In this document: positions 7,580 to 47,842 of the stretch, one piece after another | Layout of the letters: every line of letters starts with the position of its first letter | Numbering within the stretch: position 1 is the first letter of the stretch | From: Opeltia flavorubescens | Taxonomy: Eukaryota; Ascomycota; Lecanoromycetes; Teloschistales; Teloschistaceae | NCBI GenBank assembly: GCA_000442125.1 | Contig: KE546984.1 | Coordinates: 186,001 to 250,000 of the forward strand | Length of the DNA stretch: 64,000 nt | Direction of reading: 5' to 3' | Program-made: the position numbers and the translations under genes | Notes under the pieces: model-generated | Databases searched by the model: none | Told to the model about the DNA's origin: nothing | What the model saw: the letters and a program-made list of their open reading frames with translations, nothing else

Positions 7580-7977
7580 TCTATGACGTCTAGCTTCAGC
7601 TGGAGGAGGTTTCAACGTAGAAGTTCGGCAAGGTTGGTTCTAGATGGTGACCGCCACGCAACCCAAATACGTATTTGCAGTCTGTTAGATGTCATTCGAG
7701 ATATCATACATCCAAATTCTCTACAGCCTGGTAAGTAATACCTGACTTTCCAAATTTGAAGTATCGATACCCGTGGTGTGCCTGTCACATGACTTATCTG
7801 GAATATCCTTATCTCGTGTGACTCATCATCCATCAATCTCGAAAAGGGGCAAAATCTATCATGAGAACTGCCCACTGACAATTCAGACGTTCGAATGTTC
7901 TAGTGGGGAGTGGATAAACGGATGGTCAAAGATGATGAGGAAGGTAGGAAAGATTTGCCCAAAAAAAAAAGGAATGT
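7580..7977. other. Intergenic between the 878-aa gene and the tRNA
   Basis: 3' flank of the 878-aa gene. An A10 run at 7961-7970 lies just beyond the 3' end of the minus-strand tRNA. It reads as T10 on the transcribed strand and fits a pol III terminator. Confidence 0.5.
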
Positions 7978-8048
7978 AGCAATTGATGGTTTCGATCCAT
8001 CGTCCTCCGGGTTATGAGCCCGGCGCGCTTCCGCTGCGCCAAATTGCT
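7978..8048 (-). tRNA. Initiator tRNA-Met (CAT)
   Basis: 71 nt, no intron. The acceptor stem AGCAATT/AATTGCT pairs perfectly and starts with A1:U72. The D stem is GCGC/GCGC. The anticodon arm is CCGGG-CTCATAA-CCCGG (anticodon CAT) and the T arm is GATGG-ATCGAAA-CCATC. The A1:U72 pair and the T loop with A in place of the usual TΨC are hallmarks of the eukaryotic initiator. The T10 run on its strand downstream fits a pol III terminator. Confidence 0.95.
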
Positions 8049-11691: not shown

Positions 11692-12093
11692 TCACATATA
11701 CCACTCCGGCTGACCCTCTTTGCTATCCTCGGTAGATTGAGGATTTGTGTGCATGGCAACAACACCCTGTACTTTGCTCAGCTCGGTCTCTTTGAACATC
11801 TCAATCGCGACGTTGGCGTAGGATTTGACGTTTCCCTCCAAGGGAGACTTGGAAAGCCATGTTTTCAATCCTTCCTCGATTTGCTTCAGAGCATCTGCAG
11901 GCACGGTAGTTGCTTTTCTGGGGGTCTCCTCGACCTCGTCTTCGCAGGTGGCTTGATGGGATGAAGATACCTGATGGACTGAGAAGGTCACCGTGCTTCT
12001 ATGGTAATGGTTTTGCTTGCTTGACAAAACGCTGTCTGTTGTAATGGCCGGTATGGAGATAAGTTGAGAAAGCAGACGAGGATTTCGTCCCAT
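11692..12093 (-). CDS. Open frame, possible 5' part of the methyltransferase locus
   Basis: 133 codons from a real ATG on the same strand as the methyltransferase, ending QPEWYM before a GTGAGT donor-like site. The central part (ALKQIEEGLKTWLSKSP, YANVAIEMFKETELSKVQG) looks like amphipathic helices. The N-terminus is Ser/Thr-rich. Joining this donor to the next exon in a simple way gives a stop; a 2-nt microexon would keep the frame, which I consider speculative. It could be an independent small gene or noise. Confidence 0.25.
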   Translation of the reverse strand: MGRNPRLLSQLISIPAITTDSVLSSKQNHYHRSTVTFSVHQVSSSHQATCEDEVEETPRKATTVPADALKQIEEGLKTWLSKSPLEGNVKSYANVAIEMFKETELSKVQGVVAMHTNPQSTEDSKEGQPEWYM

Positions 12094-14460
12094 CTACGCA
12101 GAATTCATTTGTCGATAACGATCCGTACTTCACTTACTCATCACTCTTCATCCACTTCAACAGTATATCTGTGGGCAGAATACATTGAGGCAGTCATGAG
12201 AGACAAAGCGAATAATATGACTTAACAATTTCTAAGTGAATGAGACATCGAGACTGCGATTGAATGCAGCACACTTACCCGATTTCAATCTGCTCCTACC
12301 AGTCATTCCAAGGGCTGAAATATCGATTCCACATATTCTACTACAAGTCGATGCTTAGGTCGTTATAAGCTGTTGCGGGCGGGCATTTCTCAGGCTGAAG
12401 AAAGGCACTACACTCTAAATAGACTTTTGTATGTATACTTTGGTGGCATTGAGGCGCCTGCGCAAATATATGCGATGTATTTTGTAGTAGAACTCACGTA
12501 AAGAAACATAGGCTCAGAATAAGGAATTATCCGGTACCGTTCAGCATTGAGCCGTGAGAACAGTATGGTTCCCCATGTCAGTCATCATTGCCGGCCAACT
12601 CTCTTCATTCCCCCTACGCGGCTGCTTGCAAAAGATCCACAATAATCCCTTGAGCAAGTTCACCCGGAACCCGGCATACTGTTACTTTTCAGCTTTTGGA
12701 AAAGCAAACCCTCTTGTAACAAAATCCCCATAATTGCATCTCCCCTTGGATGTAAAACACCTTAAGATCTTGCAAAGGATGTATGGAAAAGAAGCCCTCG
12801 AATACGACAACTGGGAAAGATACTGGTGCCTCTTAAACCAGCCGCCGTATATCTGCCACATCTCCGTTAAGGTATGCAAAACCCCTCAGTACTATTCCAT
12901 AGGTGTGATCCCCCAATTCTTAGCTCAGGACAGAGAACACACGCCTGGAGGAAATTCTCGGCGTGTAGACATTTTTATTGCATCACTGGCTTCATTGGTT
13001 TCGAACACTCGCTGCAGCACGATCTTGTGGGCGATGATACCACCCATCATCAGGAGGCAAGAGAATAATGAGGCTGAGGTGGCCGTCGAACCAGAGTTGT
13101 GGTTGCTTCAGCAAATCTAGCATATTAGCGAATACAGCCTTCGGTCATAATTGTCTGGACATCGTATGCTTGGAACGGGATGCGATCTTTGGTATTTTTA
13201 AGCCTGTACAGTCAGAGAAATCTTCCAAGTAGCCATTGTGGACCAGACCCAACCCCCGAACATTGATGGTGACACCGGCCAGCGGAGTTCTCCTTCGATT
13301 CCTATTTCTGTTCGCGAAGTGGATCTCTTTGCTCCCGAGTATGAAAACTCACTATGTGGAAAGGATAAAAGATGTGGATTAAGTGCCAGGTTGCATGTAA
13401 TTCCTAAGAAGATGACACTGGTCATAATTCGTACTGGACATCATTGTGAGGCTTGTTAGCTAAATACTACGAGATCAATCTATATGAGAGCAGCTTGTGG
13501 AGACCAATCCTGATTTCCGCAAGAAGTGAAAGGAAAATCGTCAGAGTACCGGAATTCTTGTCAACCGCAGCTGAGGCGGATGTCTTCGCAGACATATATT
13601 GTAGATCTCGCGAATGCACATGTAGATTAATATCATTTCGTAATTATAGGTAGTCTTTCATGGTCACCACCATCAGATGTCTAGCCTTGAAGTCTTCACC
13701 GCCTGTGTGTTTCTGGGGTCTGGTCCTCTGTTTCAAGCCAGCGCTGATGATTCGGAGGTAGATCGCTTCACAGCTATCGAGCCAGCCAGCCAGCCATTAA
13801 TCTCTAAGCTTACGGCCCGTGAGTTCTCACCATCATTGTCGAGCTCTCCGTAGTTCCTCTTTTCCTGTATTTTCATATCTACCAAGTACAAGGCAGCAAT
13901 GATGCTCGAGTCAAATGCACAGCATTATGGAACACCCTAGTTCCTCTTATGAGTTCCACTCAAGACAGTGCCGGTAGAGACGAACATGGTGCAATTGCGC
14001 AATGAGGTAACATTTACGTGAGATTACATGGAATGACCGTGGGCACGTGCGTGGAGCAATGGAGATATGAGGTATTCTTACAAGCAGAGTGGTCACATGA
14101 CACGATCAAATGGAGCAAATGTGCGCAAAATGAAAATTCTTAATCAAAAAAAATTTGGAATTGTACTAGTGAGAGAGTCAGTCAGGTATATATGAAAGAT
14201 GATGCTTCGTTCAAGGTGATAAGTTGGATCCTCAGACTTTGAAATACGATCTTAATTTTATCATCATCGAGGCTCCCGTGAAGCAAACGCTCCAATCGGC
14301 AGACTGCTTTGGCTGATGAGAAATCCCAAATGAGGGACCATACCGTGCATCGAGCCTTTGGCTTTCCGCAGGTCATGGCCCTCAGTGATGAAAAGCAACA
14401 GTTTAGAAGAATCATCATATGAAAAGGGGCAGTGATGAAATGGAAAGTGGGCTTACCATT

Positions 14461-14492
14461 CTCTGAGCCTTTTACAACTGAGCTATGCGGGC
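14461..14492 (-). pseudogene. 5' half of a tRNA (tRNA-Lys-like)
   Basis: Read on the minus strand, the 19 nt from 14492 (GCCCGCATAGCTCAGTTGT) match the acceptor strand and D arm of fungal tRNA-Lys at 17 of 19 positions by my recollection of that tRNA. No anticodon arm, T arm or complementary acceptor strand follows, so it is a truncated copy or a chance match. Confidence 0.35.
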
Positions 14493-15863
14493 GGGATACG
14501 ATTTTGTTCTCTATAATTCATTATATTATTGTCTTAGTCTTATCATGATAAGGCTTTGGTATGTGGGCGCCGGTGTTCGAGACCATGATGTACATTTTGA
14601 AGGAGCTTTTTTTCTTTCGTCCGATCTATATCCATAGCTCATGAGAATTAGGTTCAATCAAATCTCAGCTTTTTGACATGTTCTGACGCTGATCTGGCCG
14701 TTCTTCATCGTTGACCTGTAGACTGGTGCTGTCTTTGCCAAGGAATCAGGGTCGTTGCCAGTGACTGCCATCTTTTGTCTCCACGCGATCGACTCAGTGA
14801 AGTAGCTGCCAAAGAACCTCCCGAAACATTAGAATGCTCTGATGAGGAAAAGAATGTTATGATTCCAGTGCATCCGATGCGATTCTGAGCAGCGTTGGCA
14901 ATCGCACATTCTTCGACCAGCACATCGAGTCCATAACCTCACAGGAATCCGACACGAAAGCACATGATCTTGACACGCCAAATTTCTGGATAGCATCTAT
15001 GCGATTGGCAAGCGGAACTTCTTACCTTCTCGATTCCATCTTTCAGTCCCCATCTTCCTACCTACGAACAAGACTACGAGTAAGGAGATGGAAATGCCAC
15101 ATCGAAAGAGTTGGGAAATAGCAGGGAGAACACATCAAGCTACAGAAGCATGGATAAACACTATGGGTCCTACACTTACGCTTACATTTTCCCGGACCGA
15201 AGAGGTGGATGGCTGAATCAATACTCGGGAAGTACCCCGGGGGTTCCATAATACCCATCGTGTGGATGAAGGAGGGAGACTGAATGGTCGCCATGGTGGA
15301 AATTGGGATGATAACACACTCGCGGTCCTGACACGGGTTCCTTCACACGGTGCTGACTCACACTCAACGAAGTCCGATCTAATCGTCTATATGTTGCTAG
15401 ACGGCGAATGTGCTACAATGCTGAGGTCAGCCCGTCGAACCGCTTGATATTCCTTCGCCAAGATTTAGCTTTATCAATTTTCCTCCTTCACAGCCGTCCT
15501 ATCCGATGCATCGCACAGGAATTGCTTCCATGACGAAATGCCGATTCCGAATGCCAGCAACCGAGGTGGCATTTTGGCGAGGCCTTGATAAAATTCAGTG
15601 GATGGAATGGAGGGGGTGCCCTGGGTGCAACTGAGCTTGCTGTCGTGGAGGATTTGCTATCGTCGAGCTATCCCTTTCATGGAAAGGCGTATGCAGAAAC
15701 CCCTGGGCGCCGCGTTCGGTCTGGATTGTGGTACACCCTGTAGAGTTATACACATTGGCGGCGGTGATGAAATACTTTCGGTGAGCTCGAAGTCAGTCTG
15801 CCTTGCTGATTGATAACCTTACATGCGACAGGTATCACCAGTCGGTCACGCTATACGCGCAAG

Positions 15864-15887
15864 AATGCTTGCCTGAAGGCAAGCATT
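15864..15887. repeat. Perfect 10-bp inverted repeat with 4-nt loop
   Basis: AATGCTTGCC, loop TGAA, GGCAAGCATT. Followed at once by TGACTCAT, a match to the Gcn4/CpcA (bZIP) consensus. It could be a terminator-like hairpin, a palindromic protein site, or chance. Confidence 0.5.
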
Positions 15888-16432
15888 GACTCATTTTGAG
15901 TTTGAGTATAAGAGCATCAAACTCTGATATGATCATGCCTGTGGCGATGATGTGATTGTTGAAGGCTCCTGAAGGCCGAGCAAAATTCAAACATTTTCCG
16001 GGTACGACGCGTGAAATGGCTCATGCGCAAGTTATCCTCCATTGAACCTTGTCTTATTAACACCCCTCCCAGATCGACACGCCCAGAATTGACACGCCCC
16101 GCCAAGACTAGGCCACCACCACCACGATCCTCGAGGCTACGTGAGGACCGACGCCTGACAACACCCAAGCTCATGAATTTCACGTAACAATTAGGATCGT
16201 AATCTGATGTCATATTTGGTAGCTGCATTGTACTGCAGGAGCTGGCATCAACAACAGCTTATCACGCCGTTCATGCCCAAGGCACGCGTGGGGAATAGCC
16301 TGACAACTTGACCAGAGTAAGCCATTGACTACCAACCCCACCACTGAGGTTCAGCCTTCCCGTCCACTTCCTCGATATCTCCCAAATCTCAACGGAGTAG
16401 GGAAGTACCTTGACTATTGGTCTTGTCCATCC

Positions 16433-17158
16433 ATGGCTCCTACTACATTTACTCAGACCTCCGGTACCTCGATGAGCTTCCTATCTCTTCCTGGAGAAGT
16501 ACGTAATTGCATCTATCAGCTTCTTTTCTCGGACCCTGTTCATGCGTCGAGGTGTCCAGCAGATGAAACCCATGTAGATCTCTATAAAGGACCACTTTTG
16601 GGTTCCAGTGCAAATGTGTCTCCAAACACTGGGCAGATACTAGCAACCTGCCATCAAATCCGCCACGAAGCGGCGCAATTTTACTACAAGGGAGCGATTG
16701 CAATAACAGACTATCAATTTCTACACATTGATGAACCCGGTCGCCTCATTGTAATTGCGGATGCTCTGACCAACCTCACGGTGCATTTTCACGATAGCGT
16801 ATATATTGATATCCTCAGTCTCAACCACTGCTCCAGTTTGAAAAGGTTTCAGATCATGTCTCGTACCACGCCTCGAGAGATCAAGAAAAGGAGGGCGCTG
16901 TGCAGCAAGGCGATCAGCTTGCTATGGCAAGTAAAATCTTGGCTTCAAAGCCATCCTAGCCTCACCATGGCGCTGAGCGCGGATGATCGATTCTATCACC
17001 GCCATCACTATCGGGGCGGCAACACCTGGCTTTGGGAAGGTCTTTGGTTGGTCCTTGTTAAGGCCAAGAGCGATGGCTATGAAAATGATGGGGACGTCTT
17101 TGACATTGACTTTGAAATTCAAAGACTTTCAAGAGAGCACGCTTGGCGTAGTTTATAA
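16433..17158 (+). CDS. 2EXR/F-box-like domain protein
   Basis: 241 aa from the ATG at 16433; the frame upstream of it lacks an ATG. The N-terminus has SFLSLPGEVRNCIYQLLF, the LPxExRxxIY(x)LL signature of the F-box-like/2EXR proteins that are abundant in filamentous ascomycetes. Next comes a block with ILATCHQIRHEAAQFYY, where a Cys/His-containing helix often reads 'LLxxCRQIRxEA' in this family. Helices continue to the end. No repeats or catalytic residues. Such proteins are lineage-specific and poorly characterised; a role as a ubiquitin-ligase adaptor is only inferred from the F-box resemblance. It stands alone beside a gene-poor stretch and the hairpin array. Confidence 0.75.
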   Translation: MAPTTFTQTSGTSMSFLSLPGEVRNCIYQLLFSDPVHASRCPADETHVDLYKGPLLGSSANVSPNTGQILATCHQIRHEAAQFYYKGAIAITDYQFLHIDEPGRLIVIADALTNLTVHFHDSVYIDILSLNHCSSLKRFQIMSRTTPREIKKRRALCSKAISLLWQVKSWLQSHPSLTMALSADDRFYHRHHYRGGNTWLWEGLWLVLVKAKSDGYENDGDVFDIDFEIQRLSREHAWRSL

Positions 17159-17913
17159 CTCAATTATCACGAACCTCTATCAGGCCAGAGAATCGCCCAA
17201 CCGGAACACGAGTATCAACTGTGCCTCCAACGCTCTTGGCCGAAAAAACCTCTGGCCAATTTACAAGGCCATCTGAGAACCGACTAGTTTGACGATAACT
17301 ACCAGGGGGCTAAATCTCGGACATATTTTCTTTCGTTCAGCTAAAGGCAGCAATATTATCTCTATCAGCAGATCTATTAAGCTATCACTGGCTTATTTCA
17401 CCCACATGAGTGCGCATAGATCTTGCTTACGGTTCCAAGAACACACGGAAAACGCTTTTTTCTCCTATCTTTCATCTAGGCAGTACATTCGCCGAAAGTG
17501 AGAATTTTTACCCTAAAAGTCTAATATTTAATGTCTATCACCAATTAGACAGCACTTACTACTGCTCTACAATGTGATTTTTCATGATTTCGGTCTTTTC
17601 CATCAAGGGTTTGCCAGAATAGCATTGTGCCGCCGCTTGAAACACATCCTCTGTGCAATGAAAATGCCAAAAGATTTGAGGGGAAATCCAGAACCTCCCT
17701 CGAGCAGCTGGGTCATCATGATGTGCAATCAACTCGTGGAAAAATAGTCTTTGGCCCTTGACACTGCTTCTCCAATCATTGAAGTCACATGATCCAACTA
17801 AAATAGAGGGAACATGCTCAAATCCCCTGAGCCCTAAGGCTTGGCGCCTCGAAGTTATAAAAGAGGAACTAACGAGTTCCCCCCGCCTTTTTCACTCACA
17901 AGACCCGTCGATG
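17159..17913. other. Intergenic
   Basis: 3' flank of the 2EXR-like gene. No gene. Near 17870-17887 there is GGAAC-TAACGA-GTTCC, a 5-bp hairpin that does not share the loop of the array that follows. Confidence 0.45.
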
Positions 17914-17933
17914 AAAAGTCGTAACAAGGTTTC
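17914..17933 (+). other. 20-nt exact match to the 18S rRNA 3'-end region
   Basis: Contains GTCGTAACAAGGTTTC preceded by AAAA, identical over 20 nt to the near-universal sequence near the 3' end of fungal 18S rRNA (the ITS5 primer region). The match stops abruptly on both sides: downstream reads AACGGGG, not CCGTAGG. A chance match of this length in 64 kb is very unlikely. It lies immediately before the hairpin array. Confidence 0.6.
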
Positions 17934-18161
17934 AACGGGGGCAAACTGATTAAAGAGGCGCGAATCTTTCTTCAGTGAGCCGTGAACACAGACGAAGGCC
18001 ATGATGCCGTGGAGACTTTCTTCGCATTGAGGGTTTCCCAAACGTGTGACGAAGTCTCCTGCGGAGCCTATATCGAGGGAATTGTCGCGGGACAGGGGGC
18101 TCCATAGGGTACACCATGATGGTGTTTTAGCTAATAAAAAAGTCGCTGTTAGCTTTTCGTT

Positions 18162-18770
18162 GGAGAGACACCAGGATCTTCTACGAGCACCGGTGTACGC
18201 TAAGCTTTGAAAGTGTGGCCGAGGGCTCCATTGAGGATGCAGTGGGATTTGGCTTTCGAGAGTGACTCAACACAGGATCAGGTGTCGGCCGCCTGAAGCT
18301 CGGCCAACCGGTTCAAAGAGGCACTAGAATCTTTGTCCCGGTAGCCGTGCGAATCAGACTTTAAATATGAGGGCCAGAGGGCTCCATAAAGTCAAAAATT
18401 GGCTTTCAGCGAACGGGGTTCGTCACAGTTACCACAGGGAACGGTCACCGGTCAGCTCGTTGAAGAGACACCAGGATCTTCTTCAAGTACCGGTGCAGTA
18501 AAATCGTTGAAAGTGTGGCCGAGGGCTCAATTAAAGAGAAGCAGTGGGATTTCCCATACAAGGATGACACACCGGATCAGTGTACCGGCATTACCTGACG
18601 AGAGTGCGGTCAGCTGGTTCAGAGACATCGGGATCTGCTCCAGTAGCCGTGCTAATCAAACTTTTAAGCATTAGGGAGTGAGGACTCCGAAAAAACCTAC
18701 CTAGTGAGTCCCTTCCGATCCGAAATATACAACAAGCCGGGCTAATTCAAGCAGAACCATGAAAGTGGGG
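18162..18770 (+). repeat. Higher-order duplication of two array units (period about 300 nt)
   Basis: The units at 18162 and 18462 are closest relatives (GAGACACCAGGATCTTCT, then ACCGGTG, then AAAGTGTGGCCGAGGGCTC). So are the next two, at 18314 and 18620 (AGTAGCCGTG/GGTAGCCGTG, AATCA(G/A)ACTTT). A two-unit block was therefore duplicated and has since diverged. Confidence 0.65.
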
Positions 18771-19881
18771 TAAGCTGGTTCAAGAGACTTAAATGGATCT
18801 TGCTCCAGTAACCTTTTCGAGACGGAAATCATTTGAGAGAATCTTCTTGCGCTTGCGGGATCCTCCAAACCTCGATATGACGACCTCCCACTCTGCGCCT
18901 AATGAGGAAACATTGATCCTATGAACACACCGGGACACCGCCGACAAGGATACGCTGGTTCAAGAGGCGAATGAATCTTGCGCCAGTGCCCATCACAGGG
19001 ATGTCGAGACGGATCAAAGAGAACCGTATTATATACGGAGACCAATTCAGAGGGCTCATCGAGGACAGAAAGGGGATCAGACGAGATGAAGAAGGGTTCC
19101 GCAGCGAAGAAGAAGCGGCCGTGCGTATGCAGGTCTCATGAGGTACGGAGGGCTCTAGCCGGAAAAAAAACGCGTTCGCGACGTTGCTTTTGATCTACAG
19201 TGGACCAGGGCAATGAGACACCTGAATCTTGCCCCTAGTAACCACCAGGGGAGAGGCTTCGATGCTACAGAAACACCTATACTTGGGGTTTCCCCAAAGC
19301 ATTGGAGATATTTCTTTCATGAGCCCAAGGGAGATTGGAGGCACAGAGGGCTCTTAGAAAAGCGAAGTTGACGCAATGTGCTTTGTATTATACAGTGGAC
19401 TGGGACAAGAGGCACTTGAATCTTGCTCCTAGTAGCCATTGAAGGGGGAGGCTATGATGCAATGTGGAAATTTCCTTTGCTTGGGGTTTCCCTGAAGTGT
19501 TGAAAGGTTTTTCTACTCTGAGCCTGTTGACGGGGGATTAGTGGTCTTGGAAGGCTCTAGCGAACAAAACCTTAACGAGGGCAAGTCAAGTGCTAGCAGC
19601 AACATGAGGGTACGGTCATCTGAATTGGGAGACATGTGGATCCCGTCTTCGTGACCGTTAGAGGAGAGGCAGTGATGTCACGAAAAACTGTTACCCTTTG
19701 CTTCGGTTCTTCCTTTGGGATTAGCATGTTTCCATTTTTGAGCCCAACGAGGGCCAAGATCTGGCACAGAGAGTCCGCTCCTCCGCGACAACGATCACCT
19801 TATTCAGGCCGCGGCGCTCCATCACAAAGCCGGAAAAATCTTTTCCAAGAGAAGAGTCGGTTACATGATCCGTCGGCCCCC

Positions 19882-20231
19882 GCTGGTTCAGCAAGACCCC
19901 AGAATTCTGCTCCAGTGGCCGAGTAATCCAAATAACTTCTTTCAGAGTTACACAGCCGGTCTCGATGTAAAATAATGGCCAAAAGGGCTGTGACTCAACA
20001 CTGAGCTCGGGGGGTCCGCCAGTTGACAACCATTTTGTCCATGGGCAGCACTCCGTCAAAATGGGAAAAATTCCCTTCTAAAATTTGGCTTAATGATCCT
20101 TCGACGTGCCACCGATTCAGAAGACCCCAGAATTCTGCTCCAGTAGCCGAACAACCAAACAACTTCTTTCAGAGTTACACAGCGGTCTCGAGCAAATAAT
20201 GGCCAAAAATGCTGTGACCCAACGCTGAGCT
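19882..20231 (+). repeat. Youngest direct repeat pair of the array
   Basis: About 19882-20008 and 20111-20231 are near-identical over about 120 nt (shared AGACCCCAGAATTCTGCTCC, AACTTCTTTCAGAGTTACAC, AAATAATGGCCAAAA), with small indels netting 3 nt. The 100 nt between them are unrelated. Confidence 0.75.
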
Positions 20232-20232
20232 T

Positions 20233-21319
20233 TGAATAGCTGCAGCTACTGAGGAGTGAGGGAGGGCGATGATGATATTGGGAATCCATGTCTTTCCGTG
20301 TTCCTTTTTTATGTGTTTTTTTTTGTGAATGGATGGGAGGAGGGATTTCTCATGTTTCTGAGCCAAGAATGGGATATTTGACATGTCTTAGTGGGGGAGT
20401 TGGGATTGAATTACTCATTGATATTGAAAAGATGTGGGTTACATTGGACGGTACTGTACTGCTGGGACTTATCATGAGCACGGGAGCTGGAGTATGGAAG
20501 TTATAACCCAGACACTCCTTTGGGATTCCTTGGCGAGGTAAGTAGGGGAGCTCTGGTTTTCTTTCTTTAAGGGTTAGAATTTAGGAGAAGGGGAGGCGGA
20601 GAACAGAAGGGAGTTGAAGGAGAGAGGAAAGATCTTGATTCAGGAGTAAAACGAATTGTATTATCGAATATTATCCCTTTTTCACCTCGAGTCCCGAGAT
20701 AGGACTATTGATAAACAATTGACAAGACACTCAGCATCCTTCTCAATATCCTCCCCTCATCCAAAAAAAAATTCAACCCAATCACTCACATTAAATCCAA
20801 TTGTCCTGAAAACCGAAGTCGATCTACCAACTCAAGCACCGAACTATCCACTCAAAGTTCTACAAACCCGGATAACAAAGTAATAACAAGATCAGCACTG
20901 ACAAGCTAAACTAGGGAATTAGTGTACATTTCTCACGGATATCCAGATGAAAAAAGAAGGAACGAAATACAGTATACTTAGCCAGGGGTGGCGGACGAAT
21001 GTATCCACTCACAAAATCCGCCATGGCCATTAGGGGAGAAAGAACATCGAGTCGAAACCTCCATTATCACGCAGAATTCACTCATCACAAATAGAATAGT
21101 ATTTCAAAGTGAATCATTACAGAAAGTCACAACCTCAAAGTCGTGCAAGTAATCATCCCCTCCACCCCCAACCCTTAGGACGCACATAGGAAACCCTTCC
21201 CTCGTGAATATCAATACTAATCAGGTAAAGTCACCACAACACAAATCCCCTCCGCTGTTACATCCTGCCCATCAAAGGCTCACAAATCCCCTCTCTACCC
21301 CCAGCCGACCCCCTACCCC
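20233..21319. other. Intergenic, 3' flank of the glycosyltransferase gene
   Basis: T/G-rich to about 20500, then mixed sequence. No array units after 20232. No gene seen; short ORFs are without features. Confidence 0.5.
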
Positions 21320-22767
21320 TCACTCCCCTCCCTCCCTCATAATCAACCTCCCAAGATCCTTCGCCGACTTATCCCTCCCCTCAATACCAGACTTCCTCAA
21401 AAGCTCACTCCCACTTTCCTTGGCCCCGGCCACAACGTTCTTCGCCGCATTCTTCGCCGCGTTCTCAAATCCAGTAGTCAGACTCACCCGATCGCCATTC
21501 CAAGTAGTCCTATACAACGTAAGGAGCGAGTAAACCTTGACCAGACCATGAAGATACCCAAACGCAATCGAAGCGGGCAGAAACCTCAAATCAGCCGGAT
21601 ACTTCCAAAAATACGGCACAAGCTTCACAATCTTCGAGAAAAGGATCCAAACCCCCAAGAGCGTCAGCGCCGATCGTCTCGATGCCGGGAGAAAGAACCA
21701 AGCTTCAGGCTTCCCATAATCGTCGTAGGCATGATAAAGGCAATACGCCAAAACCCCCTCAAAGACCGCCGGCGGAGGATTGAAAGTGGAAAGATGCAGC
21801 GCATAACTGGACCAAGGCTGCTCTTTCCAAACCCTCCTCTCCACAACCATACTCGTGATATTACTCCTCCAAGTAGTCCTGCACCAACGTACACACTGTC
21901 CCACGAACGCCGAATCACTAGCCAGGACAGTCGTCAACGCCGCTTCCGGTGCATTCTGGACCTTAATCTTCCATCCATGGTTTACCAACCAGCGGGTGAT
22001 GAAATTATCATCATCGGCCTTCGAAAGCGAGATGTGCCCAAAAAACCAAGTCTCCCCCGCGAACCCCTTTGTGAATTCCTTATCACGGAGGATATCCGCG
22101 CGGATGGCGTAGGTGCGGCCGGAAAGGCAGGACATGCCGCCATCAACGTTTGAGGAGCCGGATACGTCGAAGTTCCAGCGCTCGAGGTAGGCGGCACTCA
22201 AAAAGTCCCAAACCTTGCCGTTCTTGGGGCGGTCAAGGGTGACGTATGGGCCCACCGCGCCGACGGAAGGGTCCTCGAATGCAGCGAGGAGATACTTGAG
22301 GGAAGTTTGTGGCCAGAAGACATCGTCGTCAGCGCAGAAGATGATGGAGGTTTTGACGTATTGGATGCCCTGGATCATCTGGAGACGTTTATTGGCTCTA
22401 GGAGCGGCCACGATCTGGAAGTGCTCTAGGCTTAAATCTTTGCAGACTTTGCGGACGATGTCAGGTCGTGGGGTCACGATGACCACGGCTTTCGGGTGAC
22501 AAGCATTGATTGAAAGGAAGCAGCGTCGGAGATGTTTGCTGTCGTTGCCGAGGGTGGGTAGAACTATGGTGACGTCTTGAGCATTGAACCTGGGGTTCGA
22601 GGCTGGGAGAATGGGTTTCAAAGTCCATGCTGACACAAGATGCACCAGGAGGCGGAGGTATCGCCATAGCCTGTACTAGATCAGCTCATCTCTCCATGTA
22701 AAGTCGGCAGGGGGATTTCGATCAGTACTTACCAAAGGATGGTAAAGGTCACTGCGTACGGTTGCAT
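21320..22767 (-). CDS. GT2 glycosyltransferase, hyaluronan-synthase/CPS1-like
   Basis: Two exons, 22733..22767 and 21320..22670, with a 62-nt intron (GTAAGT/CAG); the product is 461 aa. The tiny first exon supplies MQPYAVTFTILW, which restores the WRYLRLLVHLVSAWTLKP lead-in seen in this family. Catalytic features in order: VTIVLPTLGND (nucleotide-sugar binding), CADDDVFWP (DxD), a Gly-rich acceptor loop (GGMSCLSGRTYAIR), ADDDNFITRWLVNHGW, and QCVRWCRTTWRSN (QxxRW). Hydrophobic segments follow at about residues 295-310 and 335-400. Processive GT2 enzymes of this type sit in the plasma membrane and make or export a polysaccharide; in fungi the CPS1-type proteins affect the cell surface and virulence. 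The substrate is not predictable. Confidence 0.88.
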
Positions 22768-23538: not shown

Positions 23539-25092
23539 TCATAACCCCTGGCCATCTTCGCAACCCCAAAGCTTGACAGTGCGATCGTAACCGCAACTCG
23601 CAATCCATCGCGCGTCGTTACTAACATCCACCCCTAGCACATTTCCTGAATGACCGCTTAGTGATTTCGCAAGGCTCCAATCATCTGCTGAGAAGATGTT
23701 CACATTCTTATCGAATCCACCAGAAACGAAAAATGTTCCTGCCTTTTTTGGAGTAACTTCCATCACGGCACTCGAACCATTAGACATAAGAACGTCCTCA
23801 ACCACAGCATCATTACCCTTGTACCACCGAAGATCCGTGACACCACGATGATGTGCGCCTACTGCCCCTACGCTCTGAACCTTGCGAACGTCCCAACATT
23901 TCACCCATCCATCACCAGAACCAGAGAGGATCCTATGCCCATCCACACTCCAGTCCAGGGCGTAGATCTCGCGAATATGCCCATCCAAGATCATGACCGT
24001 TCGTCCCGTTCGTAGATCCCAGACCCGACCAATGCTATCGAGACCAGCAGTTGCGAGTAGAGAACCATCCGTATTGAAACTCAAAGCATAGACTTCACGA
24101 GAATGGCCTTCTTGCAGAAGGATCTCCGACGTAGTGGCGACATCCCAAAGTCGCCATGTTGTATCACTAGATGCTGAAGCGAGGTACTGGCCTGAAGGAT
24201 GAAACTCAATGCGTGCAACACGAGCATTATGTCCTGATAGAGTGGATACGGGAACGTCTTGAGTCAAGGACCAGAGATGGATATCACCTTCACCGCCGCT
24301 AGTAGCCAGATTGATGGCAGAAGCCGAGATGTTATGGTCAGGGAGAGTTGCATTTGGGAACCATGAAATCCCTCCAATCTTATCCTTGTGTCCGCGTAGA
24401 GTCTTGATTTCATTGAGATCAGGAATGTCGAGAAGCTTGACTCCACCGCCCCAATTCCCTGCCGCAATGATCTCTCCATTAGGGGAAAAGCGTACAAGGC
24501 TGACGGGTCGATCACCGGTAATCTGAGTGGCCATGAGATCAAAATTGGCCAGTCGACTCTTGATAGCCTGCCGGTGCTTGATGTGCGTTCGTAGGGGGAT
24601 TGACGACTCCGCTTTTTGGGAGCGAAGTCTGGATTTGGCGCGGGGGAGAGAGTAGCGTGCGATGGACTGTCGAGCTTCGAGTAAAGCATTTGATCCAGCG
24701 GTGTAGAATTCCTCCTCCTCGTCCACCTGCGGAGCGGCCTCCTGCACTGTATCCAACACCTCATCCTCTTGAGTGTCCAGCAGCAACGAACGCAAGCGGT
24801 CTCGGCGCTCCGGGGGACCTTCTCCAAACAAAGTAATAGGCTCCTTCATGCGACGGAGATATTGCCTAACCTTTGCATCGTCGGTTGGGACTGTTACAGC
24901 AGCAAGACGACGTTTCCTGGATAGTTGAGAAAGAATGGCCAAACTCTGTGGATCCTGATTTGTCTCGACGTTTTGTAGATCGACTGACGGAAGTTCTTGC
25001 AGGTCCAAATCAGGTTCGGGAGAGGCGTCTTCAATGTATGCACGCCTTGAAGGGTGAACGGCACCATCCTGGTGGGGAGCTGGAGAAGCCAT
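23539..25092 (-). CDS. PRP4: U4/U6 snRNP component Prp4 (WD40)
   Basis: Intronless, 517 aa, ATG at 25092. At about residues 70-115 the PRP4/SFM motif appears (KVRQYLRRMKEPITLFGEGP, then RRDRLRSLL). It is followed by a linker and seven WD40 blades from about residue 190: SLVRFSPNGE, LRGHKDKIGGISW, LSGHNARVARIEFHPSG, EGHSREVYALSF, LDGHIREIYALDW, VGAHHRGVTDLRW, LSGHSGNVLGVDV. Prp4 is a core protein of the U4/U6 di-snRNP and is needed for pre-mRNA splicing in the nucleus. Length and domain order match the fungal orthologues. It is divergently transcribed from the PTC7-type gene with about 250 bp between start codons. Confidence 0.95.
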   Translation of the reverse strand: MASPAPHQDGAVHPSRRAYIEDASPEPDLDLQELPSVDLQNVETNQDPQSLAILSQLSRKRRLAAVTVPTDDAKVRQYLRRMKEPITLFGEGPPERRDRLRSLLLDTQEDEVLDTVQEAAPQVDEEEEFYTAGSNALLEARQSIARYSLPRAKSRLRSQKAESSIPLRTHIKHRQAIKSRLANFDLMATQITGDRPVSLVRFSPNGEIIAAGNWGGGVKLLDIPDLNEIKTLRGHKDKIGGISWFPNATLPDHNISASAINLATSGGEGDIHLWSLTQDVPVSTLSGHNARVARIEFHPSGQYLASASSDTTWRLWDVATTSEILLQEGHSREVYALSFNTDGSLLATAGLDSIGRVWDLRTGRTVMILDGHIREIYALDWSVDGHRILSGSGDGWVKCWDVRKVQSVGAVGAHHRGVTDLRWYKGNDAVVEDVLMSNGSSAVMEVTPKKAGTFFVSGGFDKNVNIFSADDWSLAKSLSGHSGNVLGVDVSNDARWIASCGYDRTVKLWGCEDGQGL

Positions 25093-45386: not shown

Positions 45387-46519
45387 CTACATCGTCAGTA
45401 CATTATAAGCAGGCATACACCCACTCCCGTACTCGTTTAACACCCTAAACACCCCCATCGAACAACCCTCTACCACCGGCCTCGCCATCCTCGCCATCTT
45501 CCCCAACCGTATCATACCATTCACCTCCTCTATCATATCCAACTTCCCACCGCACAACGTGCCTCTCATTCGCAGCTTCAAAAGCTCGTCGACGGCATAC
45601 CTCACCTGGCCATCTCGCTGTGGCCCTCTCCCCATCATCACCCCGCCATCTCGCTGTGGCCCAACCCCCATCGTCATCGCCCAGCCATCTCTCTGTGGCC
45701 CTCCACTCCTCCATCCACTCCCACAACTCATCCCCGCCACCCTCTCCACCAACGCAAAACTACTCATCTGCAGCCGAAACTGCCCTCCGTTCTCACATTC
45801 AAAAAGCGGCCTCAACCAATGCACCGGCACTTCAAACCCCTCATCACATTTCAAATAGCTCGCCTTTGGTAACGACCCGAATGACGTGTCTAGGTAAAGC
45901 AAGCGCCCATTATCGGGATGTGCCTCATTGGGGAAGATTGGGATGTGATTTGCGCGGATACGGTGGGAGTATGCTGATAGGGGGCGGGTGGTGAGGGAGG
46001 TGATGATTAGGATTGTGGCGGTGAGGAGTGTGGGGTGGAGGGAGGTGATGAGGATGGGGTGGTTGAAGATGCCTTGAGGGAGGGTATTGGTGTTGTGGGA
46101 ATAGGGAGGGGGAGAGGGGAGGTAGTGGATTGTTCCTGGGGTGGGGAGGGCGGTGCAGGGGTTATTGTAGTGGAGGTGTTGGGTTAGGGTGCGGTGGGTG
46201 GAGCGTGGGGATGATGGTGGTGATGATGGTGGTGATGATGGTGGTGATGATNNNNNNNNNNNNNNNNNNNNNNNNNNNNNNNNNNNNNNNNNNNNNNNNN
46301 NNNNNNNNNNNNNNNNNNNNNNNNNNGTGGTGATGATTGTGGCGATGATTGTGGTGAGATGGAGTAAGGGGTGGCCATTGGGTATGGAGAGGCGAAGTAA
46401 TAGAAGGGTGGCGAGGTGGAGGCGAGTTGGTAATACGGAGATACTGGCTGGTATTCTGGGGCCATTGGGTCGAGAGGTTTGATTGGGAAGGCGGAGATTG
46501 GTTGGTGATGGAAATACAT
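45387..46519 (-). CDS. Low-complexity protein of unknown function, interrupted by assembly gap
   Basis: From the ATG at 46519 the frame reads a Pro/Ser/Tyr-rich start (YFHHQPISAFPIKPLDP) that enters SSPQ tetrapeptide repeats and then the N gap. After the gap a frame shifted by one continues with SSPP repeats and runs to a stop at 45387. A hydrophobic stretch (ILITSLHPTLLTATILIITS) precedes a compact conserved-looking part (NGRLLYLDTSFGSLPKASYL, then HWLRPLFECENGGQFRLQ). Next are three GPQRDG repeats and a C-terminus with several Cys. The tetrapeptide repeats on both sides keep one consistent frame only if the true gap is not a multiple of three. Function unknown; the two parts are very probably one gene. 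Confidence 0.55.
45610..45703. repeat. Three-copy minisatellite encoding GPQRDG
   Basis: Three copies of CCATCTCKCTGTGGCCC at about 45610, 45646 and 45685, spaced by about 36-39 nt, in frame within the low-complexity protein. Confidence 0.7.
46209..46345. repeat. 12-nt microsatellite (GGTGGTGATGAT-type) around a 75-N gap
   Basis: Imperfect 12-nt units flank N bases 46252-46326. The assembler evidently failed in the repeat. Confidence 0.85.
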
Positions 46520-47842
46520 GATTACGCAACGGGCGAGCAGGGCACAGCAAGAAAATGGTCTATAATCGTGAGATGATAATTGTATACGATACTGCTATGA
46601 TTATTGAGCAGAGAGTGATGGTATACAATGCTACGATAGAGACCGAAATGATAGAGAAGAGAAGGAAAATGAGACGAGAATGATGAATATATACTTAAGG
46701 TGACTTCTCTAGTCAACATGGCAACTATGGACAAGGTGAGAGAATTGGAGGTGGCAGTGTTGACCTACAAGATGAAGTCGACGACGATAAACATGGTACA
46801 CAGCGAACGAAAGAGACGTAGGTCCTTATTGGAAGACAAGCTTTGCCCAATTTGACCATAAAGGTATCAAGGTGGAGGCATCACACTCCCCTGGCCACTC
46901 GTAAACCGTCAAATCAACGCTCAGTAGAAACAAGGGGCATTGGCCAAGTCCTCAATGCAAGCGTACTCATAAAAGGAACTAAGCTTCTCTGGGCGATATA
47001 TATGAAATGTATACAAACCATACTATCCGCATGACGGACTTCAATCAAAGCGCTAGAAGACAATTGAGAAGGTTTCCTACTAAGTATAGACAGGACGAAA
47101 GTGAACTAACGAACCCCTAATGAGAGCATCAAGAGCTTGGGATAGGGCAAAGACGCTCGTCGAATGCACAATTGATGTCAAAGCACAGACAAGGAAATTC
47201 TGTCTTGGATGAAGAATATGGCTAATAAAATTGGCGGCTGTGCCACTAGTGCGAATTGTGCAATTGATGATTTCATGTCTTTGCCAGACCATGCCAACGA
47301 TCTCGTTTCAAACTGTACTAACGAAAAATCGTTGACGGTTTTCAGTAAACGGTCGATTATAATGCATGTTATGCAAATGGGCCTTGTGGGCTAAGCTTGT
47401 GTGATCATTGATCCACCTTCAACACCGGATAATGACTTGTGATGGTAGACAGCGCGCGAAATGATCGAGTACGTATGAAACAGACTTCTAGGAGACATAG
47501 GGCCATCGAACGATACGTAGAGAAGTAGATGCGGTCCCGGAAACTTACTGTCTCGGTCTCAGAGGAGATAGTCTGCAATTGTAGTATATACACTGTGTCG
47601 AGTAATGGAAATATCGCCAAAAGGCAGTCGGAAAGCTGCATCATCGAAGAGAACGTGAAGATTAAGCACCTATCAAATCGCATAGTGACTACTATAAACG
47701 CTACCCATTAGATAAGTTCTTTTTAACAACATGGCATCGAATTAAAGGTTATTACTACACGAACAGGGGTTATGTTGGCTATCGATAACGGGGTTAGGAG
47801 TTAAGGTGCTTAAGGACTGACAGTGTAAATAATGAATACTCA
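46520..47842. other. Intergenic
   Basis: 1.3 kb between divergent genes. Short ORFs at 47080-47292 and 47405-47683 (minus) have no domain. AT-rich around 46560-46700. Confidence 0.5.

Follow-up and report, generated by a model that had tools for sequence, protein, structure and literature searches.

Several described RNA systems resemble parts of the locus reported here. Box C/D snoRNAs are closed by a terminal stem of 4-5 bp, and a kink-turn consists of a 3-nt bulge followed by G·A and A·G pairs, set between two stems. Substrate hairpins of the yeast RNase III Rnt1 carry an AGNN tetraloop. Bacterial sponge RNAs of the CsrB/RsmZ type contain many hairpins with a common apical motif and variable stems, while sno-lncRNAs and scaffolds of the roX and Xist A-repeat type are long RNAs with repeated structured modules or box C/D ends. 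Among fungi, the accessible portions of the published reports describe six C/D gene clusters in Neurospora (PMC2780460) and, among the RNA candidates of Li and Breaker 2017 (PMC5640933) and Gao et al. 2021 (PMC8216456), an 'atypical snoRNA motif' with AUGAUGY and CUGA boxes. Those portions of the literature on fungal structured RNAs (these papers and PMC5832005 included) contain no array comparable to ours, which does not prove its absence from print.

The window, a 64,000-nt stretch of the Opeltia flavorubescens contig KE546984.1 (positions 186,001 to 250,000), contains one hairpin repeated twelve times on the plus strand between 17937 and 20152, accompanied by elements resembling box C/D kink-turns; hairpins and box elements of the array all lie on one strand. 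With box C/D snoRNAs, including the clustered fungal genes, these elements share boxes resembling RUGAUG and UGA, a closing stem, a kink-turn-like layout and a non-coding locus. They differ from them in that the closing stem has 3 bp, box D is not CUGA in three of six cases, no convincing guide was found, and the elements are tied to a repeated hairpin which snoRNAs do not possess. As in the yeast snoRNA polycistrons cut by Rnt1, hairpins stand between putative small RNAs, but the array loops are not AGNN and the hairpin is the most conserved part of the array. Many hairpins with a common apical motif and variable stems are also the hallmark of CsrB/RsmZ; the array is eukaryotic, displays another motif and has kink-turn-like elements. 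The likeness to sno-lncRNAs, roX and the Xist A-repeat is one of description, residing in repeated modules or terminal box C/D elements. The array is fungal like these published candidates, one of which, the 'atypical snoRNA motif', has the AUGAUGY and CUGA boxes; the accessible descriptions of the candidates include no tandem hairpin array.

The array comprises the following features; where no basis is given for a hairpin, it is the arm-swap test together with the covariance model, both described below.

17856-17863, plus strand: candidate Pol II TATA box TATAAAAG, read from the sequence
17904-17942, plus strand: hp0, possible first hairpin, loop displaying AGUCGUAACAAGG (fold -9.0, z -0.48)
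17937-17984, plus strand: hairpin u1, 8-nt loop GGCGCGAA
18147-18196, plus strand: hairpin u2
18299-18350, plus strand: hairpin u3
18447-18496, plus strand: hairpin u4 (covariance model)
18605-18652, plus strand: hairpin u5
18766-18817, plus strand: hairpin u6, 12-nt loop GACTTAAATGGA
18946-18995, plus strand: hairpin u7
19196-19247, plus strand: hairpin u8, inner stem bulged
19391-19441, plus strand: hairpin u9
19611-19660, plus strand: hairpin u10
19874-19924, plus strand: hairpin u11, inner stem shifted
20103-20152, plus strand: hairpin u12, outer and middle stem degenerate (arm-swap test, covariance model, fold z)

All twelve hairpins reported by the first-pass annotation were thus recovered in their place, and the stem switches it named are real. 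The whole element probably extends on to about 20364. With a z of only -0.48, hp0 is no better than shuffles. The TATA box may serve as promoter, in which case transcription would start near 17886-17900.

From the outside in, the hairpins follow a common plan: an outer stem, a joint, a middle stem of the CTGG/CCAG type, a 2x2 internal loop of the UU/CU type, an inner stem of the CAAGA/UCUUG type, a G·A pair, a second purine pair (A·G in five hairpins, G·A in four and A·A in three of the twelve), a C-G pair and the apex. The conserved loop GRC-N-GRA accordingly reads as two purine pairs and a C-G pair capped, in 10/12 hairpins, by a tetraloop; the apex has 2 nt in u1 and 6 nt in u6. Stem sequence is kept beyond the needs of pairing. 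Hairpins are 96-213 nt apart (147-264 nt from loop to loop), and they align across all twelve units, whereas the spacers align only in pairs or small groups (u2/u4, u8/u9, u11/u12, and u1 with u8-u10). Units u4-u5 look like a duplicate, about 300 bp long, of u2-u3. A scan for stems closed on GRC..GRA, a motif derived from these very loops, found 18 plus-strand sites in the 64 kb, 10 of them inside the 2.3-kb array, and 8 sites on the entire minus strand; it overlooked u8 and u11, whose inner stems are bulged or shifted.

A second short motif, GAGGGCUC or a sequence one change off, follows many hairpins. Sites of this type were noted at 18095, 18221, 18377, 18521, 18680, 19050, 19148, 19346 and 19550 on the plus strand and at 12792 on the minus strand; the plus strand of the entire window has 20.

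Compensatory change in the stems, claimed from the first reading of the sequence, was borne out. In a MAFFT alignment of the twelve units, 85.6% of cells are paired as against 75.4% in shuffles, and changes on both sides occur in 10 of 14 pairs, amounting to 19 cells compared with 5.8 in shuffles. The five observed values were equalled by 0-4 of 500 shuffles, and shifting the partner by 1-3 columns lowers pairing from 85.6% to 31-47%. In the outer stem, 64.6% of cells are paired in this alignment, and joint lengths vary among units. Since shuffles disregard relatedness, we applied a tree-preserving null, a simplified form of the R-scape type, in which the changes inferred for each column are put at random on the FastTree tree. 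For the twelve units, 2000 such simulations reached the observed number of paired cells in no case, that of double changes once and the G statistic never. For 14 model-aligned hairpins (the twelve and two further copies described below) the counts were 0, 0 and 0, in an alignment that leans towards structure.

The arm-swap test is independent of alignment and compares the fit of each unit's own 3' arm with that of the 3' arms of other units. Among 100,000 permutations none was as good with arms of 12, 16 or 20 nt, and one was with arms of 24 nt; for the outer portions alone the counts were 30, 479 and 96 of 100,000. Single folds reach z <= -2.5 in 10 of 14 hairpins relative to mononucleotide shuffles, those not clearly better than shuffles being u12 (z 0.6), u2 (-0.3), u11 (-1.7) and X2 (-1.6), and the proposed strand folds better than its complement in 11 of 14.

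A covariance model trained on the twelve array hairpins recognized two copies outside its training set, which form a second, diverged locus at 12616-12849 on the minus strand, about 5 kb from the array. This locus, like the box C/D-like elements and the 18S-like segments discussed below, is additional to the first reading of the sequence.

12802-12849, minus strand: hairpin X1, loop GGCACCAGUA (27.4 bits, E 3e-6)
12616-12667, minus strand: hairpin X2, loop motif kept inexactly (16.2 bits, E 0.013)

In 24 other loci of this genome, 208 kb in all, the model matched five times and never above 12.6 bits; the best match lies at the boundary between loci L023 and L024, and inspection by eye of the joined sequence shows no hairpin. 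X1 folds as a single hairpin (-20.8, z -4.0), and the fold of X2 is weaker. Their loops depart from the consensus, that of X1 ending in GUA instead of GRA and that of X2 beginning with GAU instead of GRC. X1 is followed by GAGGGCUU, which is near the GAGGGCUC that trails many array hairpins.

The hairpin structure is under selection, has been duplicated in tandem and occurs at a second locus. Covariation above the phylogenetic null, the arm-swap test and the two extra copies found by the model uphold the view that this is a structured non-coding RNA, and we regard it as very probable that the region encodes, or once encoded, one.

Six elements near the hairpins resemble box C/D kink-turns of the form GGC-NNN-GAUG...GA-GCC:

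17997-18068, plus strand: element of u1, AUGAUGC / CGGA, degenerate (relaxed pattern)
19255-19325, plus strand: element of u8, UCGAUGC / AUGA, degenerate (relaxed pattern)
19450-19524, plus strand: element of u9, AUGAUGC / CUGA (strict pattern; sub-threshold Rfam C/D match)
19668-19744, plus strand: element of u10, GUGAUGU / UUGA (strict pattern)
20265-20364, plus strand: terminal element, AUGAUGA / CUGA (strict pattern; fold z -2.07)
12511-12592, minus strand: element after X2, AUGAUGA / CUGA (strict pattern)

They begin 7-12 nt past u1, u8, u9 and u10, 23 nt past X2 and 112 nt past u12; neither the strict nor the relaxed pattern finds one after u2-u7 or u11. The strict pattern (GGC-N-RUGAUG-N45-100-YUGAGCC, both strands, 64 kb) has four matches, all in the two loci (u9, u10, terminal and X2), to which the relaxed one adds u1 and u8; in 30 windows shuffled by a first-order Markov model, strict and relaxed patterns matched 0.0 and 0.1 times per window. 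As the pattern was composed after u9, u10 and X2 had been seen, only the terminal copy was unforeseen. Box C, RUGAUGA, is exact in two of six (terminal, X2), is RUGAUG with the last base altered in three and reads UCGAUGC in u8. Box D is exactly CUGA in u9, the terminal element and X2, the others having UUGA, AUGA and CGGA.

The GGC/GCC closing stem, imposed by the pattern, is present in 6/6 and with its 3 bp falls short of a 4-5 bp terminal stem; a 4-bp closing stem is available for u1 and u9 only, given G-U pairs and offsets, box C of u8 being beyond the limits of that scan. Scanning for generic C/D elements whose stems have 4 bp or more gave 1 match against 0.1 expected at its strictest setting and 2 against 1.4 and 6 against 4.75 at looser ones; the two loci are not clearly enriched. 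The letters of a kink-turn fit in 6/6, in part through the construction of the pattern, and the second stem is continuous in four of six folds (u1, u9, terminal, X2). Support for the stem within the element is weak: 18-75 of 720 arm-swap permutations did as well. In u1, u8 and u9, the GAGGGCUC-type motif could pair with the GAGCC holding box D, and such pairing would compete with closing of the kink-turn.

An Rfam search of the two loci found no family at gathering score and no E-value below 0.36, and the U3 families, searched over 17400-20700 with E up to 10, had no match. U3 or another named family was thereby discarded, in agreement with the original remark that no named family fits. The sole window match to attain an Rfam gathering score is a tRNA-Met gene at 7976-8048 (minus strand). 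Below threshold, the best C/D match in the array is SNORD36 at u9 (21.5 bits, gathering score 30), followed there by snoZ175 (18.1 bits, also below gathering). C/D families make up 7/7 of the sub-threshold matches in 12450-12900, 2/2 in 19245-19770 and 2/4 in 20160-20450, compared with one of two in a control region; in wider scans their share was 1/3 for the whole array, 0/2 for 17880-18340 and 3/4 for 12000-16400. Several of the matches at X2 and u9 have matching ends. Because the seven X matches overlap each other and Rfam is rich in C/D families, the support is weak.

Complementarity to rRNA was searched in a yeast-like contig (its 18S and 398 bases of its LSU), where a fraction of at least 0.11 of 60 shuffles equalled every test. 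In 18 tests of D guides on three divergent rDNA contigs, u9 formed 16 pairs in one contig (0/20 shuffles) and X2 14 pairs in another (1/20), the rest being equalled by at least 2/20; the blocks that can be aligned among the rDNA contigs do not include the u9 site. The LSU test is partial since 3000 reference bases were masked and the other contigs are divergent. No convincing canonical rRNA methylation guide emerged from the yeast-like contig or from the three divergent ones.

Two segments of the array match 18S rRNA in the sense orientation, the reference being the same yeast-like contig (L036), a distant one.

17914-17933, plus strand: 20 nt identical to the 3' part of 18S rRNA, the top-scoring 18S match in the 64-kb window
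19566-19600, plus strand: 18S-like segment with a 12-nt gap (score 34, control maximum 30)

These are the two best 18S matches of the window, and their scores, 40 and 34, exceed those of all 768 control windows of 80 nt. The first corresponds to the 3' strand of helix 44 and the second to a strand of helix 17/18, both in the decoding centre; being highly conserved, such strands are the easiest to recognize against a distant reference. Within the array, matches of at least 22 bits to 18S number 6 in sense (1.0 in shuffles) and 3 in antisense (0.8); the unmasked part of the reference LSU, 398 bases, gave none. In our view both sense segments are pieces of captured rRNA, functional or not. In the species' own assembly (23 contigs, 34.4 Mb), searches with the 18S 3' end returned the array alone and a search with the 5.8S family returned nothing. 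Descent of the hairpin itself from 18S helix 44 was dismissed, the similarity being at chance level. The sequence AGAGGAACTAA at 17862-17872 (plus strand), overlapping the TATA box, matches the part of 18S that immediately precedes the one matched by the 20-nt segment; in the window 41 additional bases separate the two, which looks like the interruption of a piece derived from 18S. A 13-nt stretch just upstream of u12 (20090-20102, plus strand) is a perfect complement of the very 3' terminus of 18S; this antisense match is near chance (E 0.16 and 0.82) and shares the 18S end with the 20-nt sense match.

The array behaves neither as a coding repeat nor as a dispersed transposon. Stop codons occur in 31 of 33 readings (11 intervals between successive loops in three frames) and column variability has no three-base period (0.94, 1.04 and 0.94 bits), which excludes a continuous coding repeat. 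The first-pass annotation also held that the spacing is out of frame, which is true in part: multiples of three account for 3/11 distances between hairpin starts, 6/11 between hairpin ends and 7/11 from loop to loop, with 3-4 expected. The longest ORFs of the array have 112 aa antisense and 96 aa sense. Searching with the former returned a mechanically predicted protein of 102 aa (P0121; window 19724-20059, minus strand), whose residues 2-102 are identical to the window's own antisense frame and which is listed for 4 contigs, none longer than 3026 bases; no diverged relative was among the protein matches. For a mechanical 91-aa ORF spanning u4-u5, none of 26 candidates matched at E up to 10.

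A DNA search of the 34.4-Mb assembly (E up to 10) found one copy of the array, a miss in such a search being no proof of rarity, and likewise one copy of the X locus. A transposon was discarded on this ground. One search each of the viral contig and genome contig collections with an exact consensus pattern gave no match.

What might the array do? Our preferred, still tentative explanation is a tandemly amplified structured RNA with box C/D-type elements which acts as a multivalent RNP scaffold or sponge. We infer transcription, strand, bound proteins, localization and function of the array RNA as follows. Transcription of the array would run rightwards, with the TATA box at 17856 as its probable promoter. 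The repeated module is a hairpin of three stems, whose cap consists of two purine pairs, a C-G pair and, in most units, a tetraloop. The box C/D-type elements (after u1, u8, u9, u10 and X2, and 112 nt past u12) would recruit Snu13 and the box C/D core proteins, which, once bound, would protect the RNA and retain it in the nucleolus. The repeated apical purine motif would offer a site for one further protein, and the RNA would thereby become a multivalent scaffold or sponge. The multi-site binding platform suggested at first is likewise a proposal. That the hairpin aligns across twelve units and the spacers only in groups favours a binding module over a mere cutting site. Conservation of hairpin over spacer, together with kink-turn-like elements fitting Snu13-type proteins, is the reason for our preference; a polycistron cut by RNase III, a sponge made of hairpins only and a fossil follow in that order.

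The first of these, which we judge somewhat unlikely, is a polycistronic precursor whose hairpins are RNase III sites and whose products are small RNAs of about 100-200 nt, orphan box C/D RNAs among them, in the manner of yeast snoRNA clusters. The hairpin spacing of 96-213 nt suits it, as do the box C/D-like elements beginning 7-12 nt past u1, u8, u9 and u10 and 23 nt past X2, and the genome has a 395-aa frame (L040) containing a single Ribonuclease_3 domain (70.7 bits), alongside frames that carry a pair of RNase III domains and look Dicer-like. However, processing predicts the reverse of the conservation observed, the hairpin being more conserved than the would-be products; moreover, the loops are not AGNN and stem sequence is conserved past the needs of pairing.

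An unlikely explanation is that the hairpins alone would titrate a protein, in analogy to CsrB, their purine-pair-capped loops binding it many times over and the box-like elements being incidental or serving to stabilize the ends. In its favour are the twelve copies, which keep their apical motif while their stems vary; against it, a box-like element recurs at the second locus. We consider it more doubtful still that the array is a fossil, once functional and now decaying, with covariation inherited from past selection and with copies multiplied by unequal crossing-over. The broken outer stem of u12, the folds of u2, u11, u12 and X2 and the degenerate boxes of u1 and u8 speak for decay; against it, 10/14 hairpins fold with z <= -2.5 and diverged copies retain their pairs.

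The 18S-like segments allow two further readings. An improbable one is that a nucleolar RNA of about 2.5 kb, with twelve purine-capped hairpins, C/D-loading kink-turns and two sense 18S decoding-centre strands (3' strand of helix 44, and helix 18), acts as a mimic of pre-ribosomal RNA and thereby titrates away factors of ribosome assembly or snoRNPs; if true, it would represent a new class of eukaryotic multivalent RNA. The other, very improbable, regards the region as chimeric debris of retroposed or recombined rRNA and snoRNA without a role of its own. It would account for two sense segments outscoring every control window, but matches to 18S inside the hairpins do not exceed chance, no excess appears in the unmasked LSU of the reference (398 bases), and compensatory change is left unexplained. 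A mobile element remnant, to which the short tandem duplications might point, is scarcely credible given that DNA search of the assembly found one copy each of array and X locus, and given ORFs as short as those given above.

Here the repeats within one genome have made a structured RNA visible without comparison of species. If transcribed, the array would provide a naturally occurring multivalent scaffold of RNA, with a repeated motif by which partner proteins could easily be fished out. It would also show box C/D-type elements employed outside rRNA methylation and a structured RNA growing by tandem duplication with its fold retained.

On one side the array is flanked by a 277-aa frame at 16325-17158 (plus strand), without Pfam match, and on the other by the 3' end of a glycosyltransferase frame at 21320-22645 (minus strand). 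The latter shows 72-73% identity to its three best protein matches, all from Gyalolechia, a genus of lichen-forming ascomycetes in the Teloschistaceae. Beyond it, at 23539-25092 (minus strand), lies a WD40 frame with a domain like that of PRP4, a pre-mRNA processing factor. Farther away, a 36-nt tandem repeat (2.8 copies, 45602-45704) is located within a 387-aa frame at 45387-46550 (minus strand).
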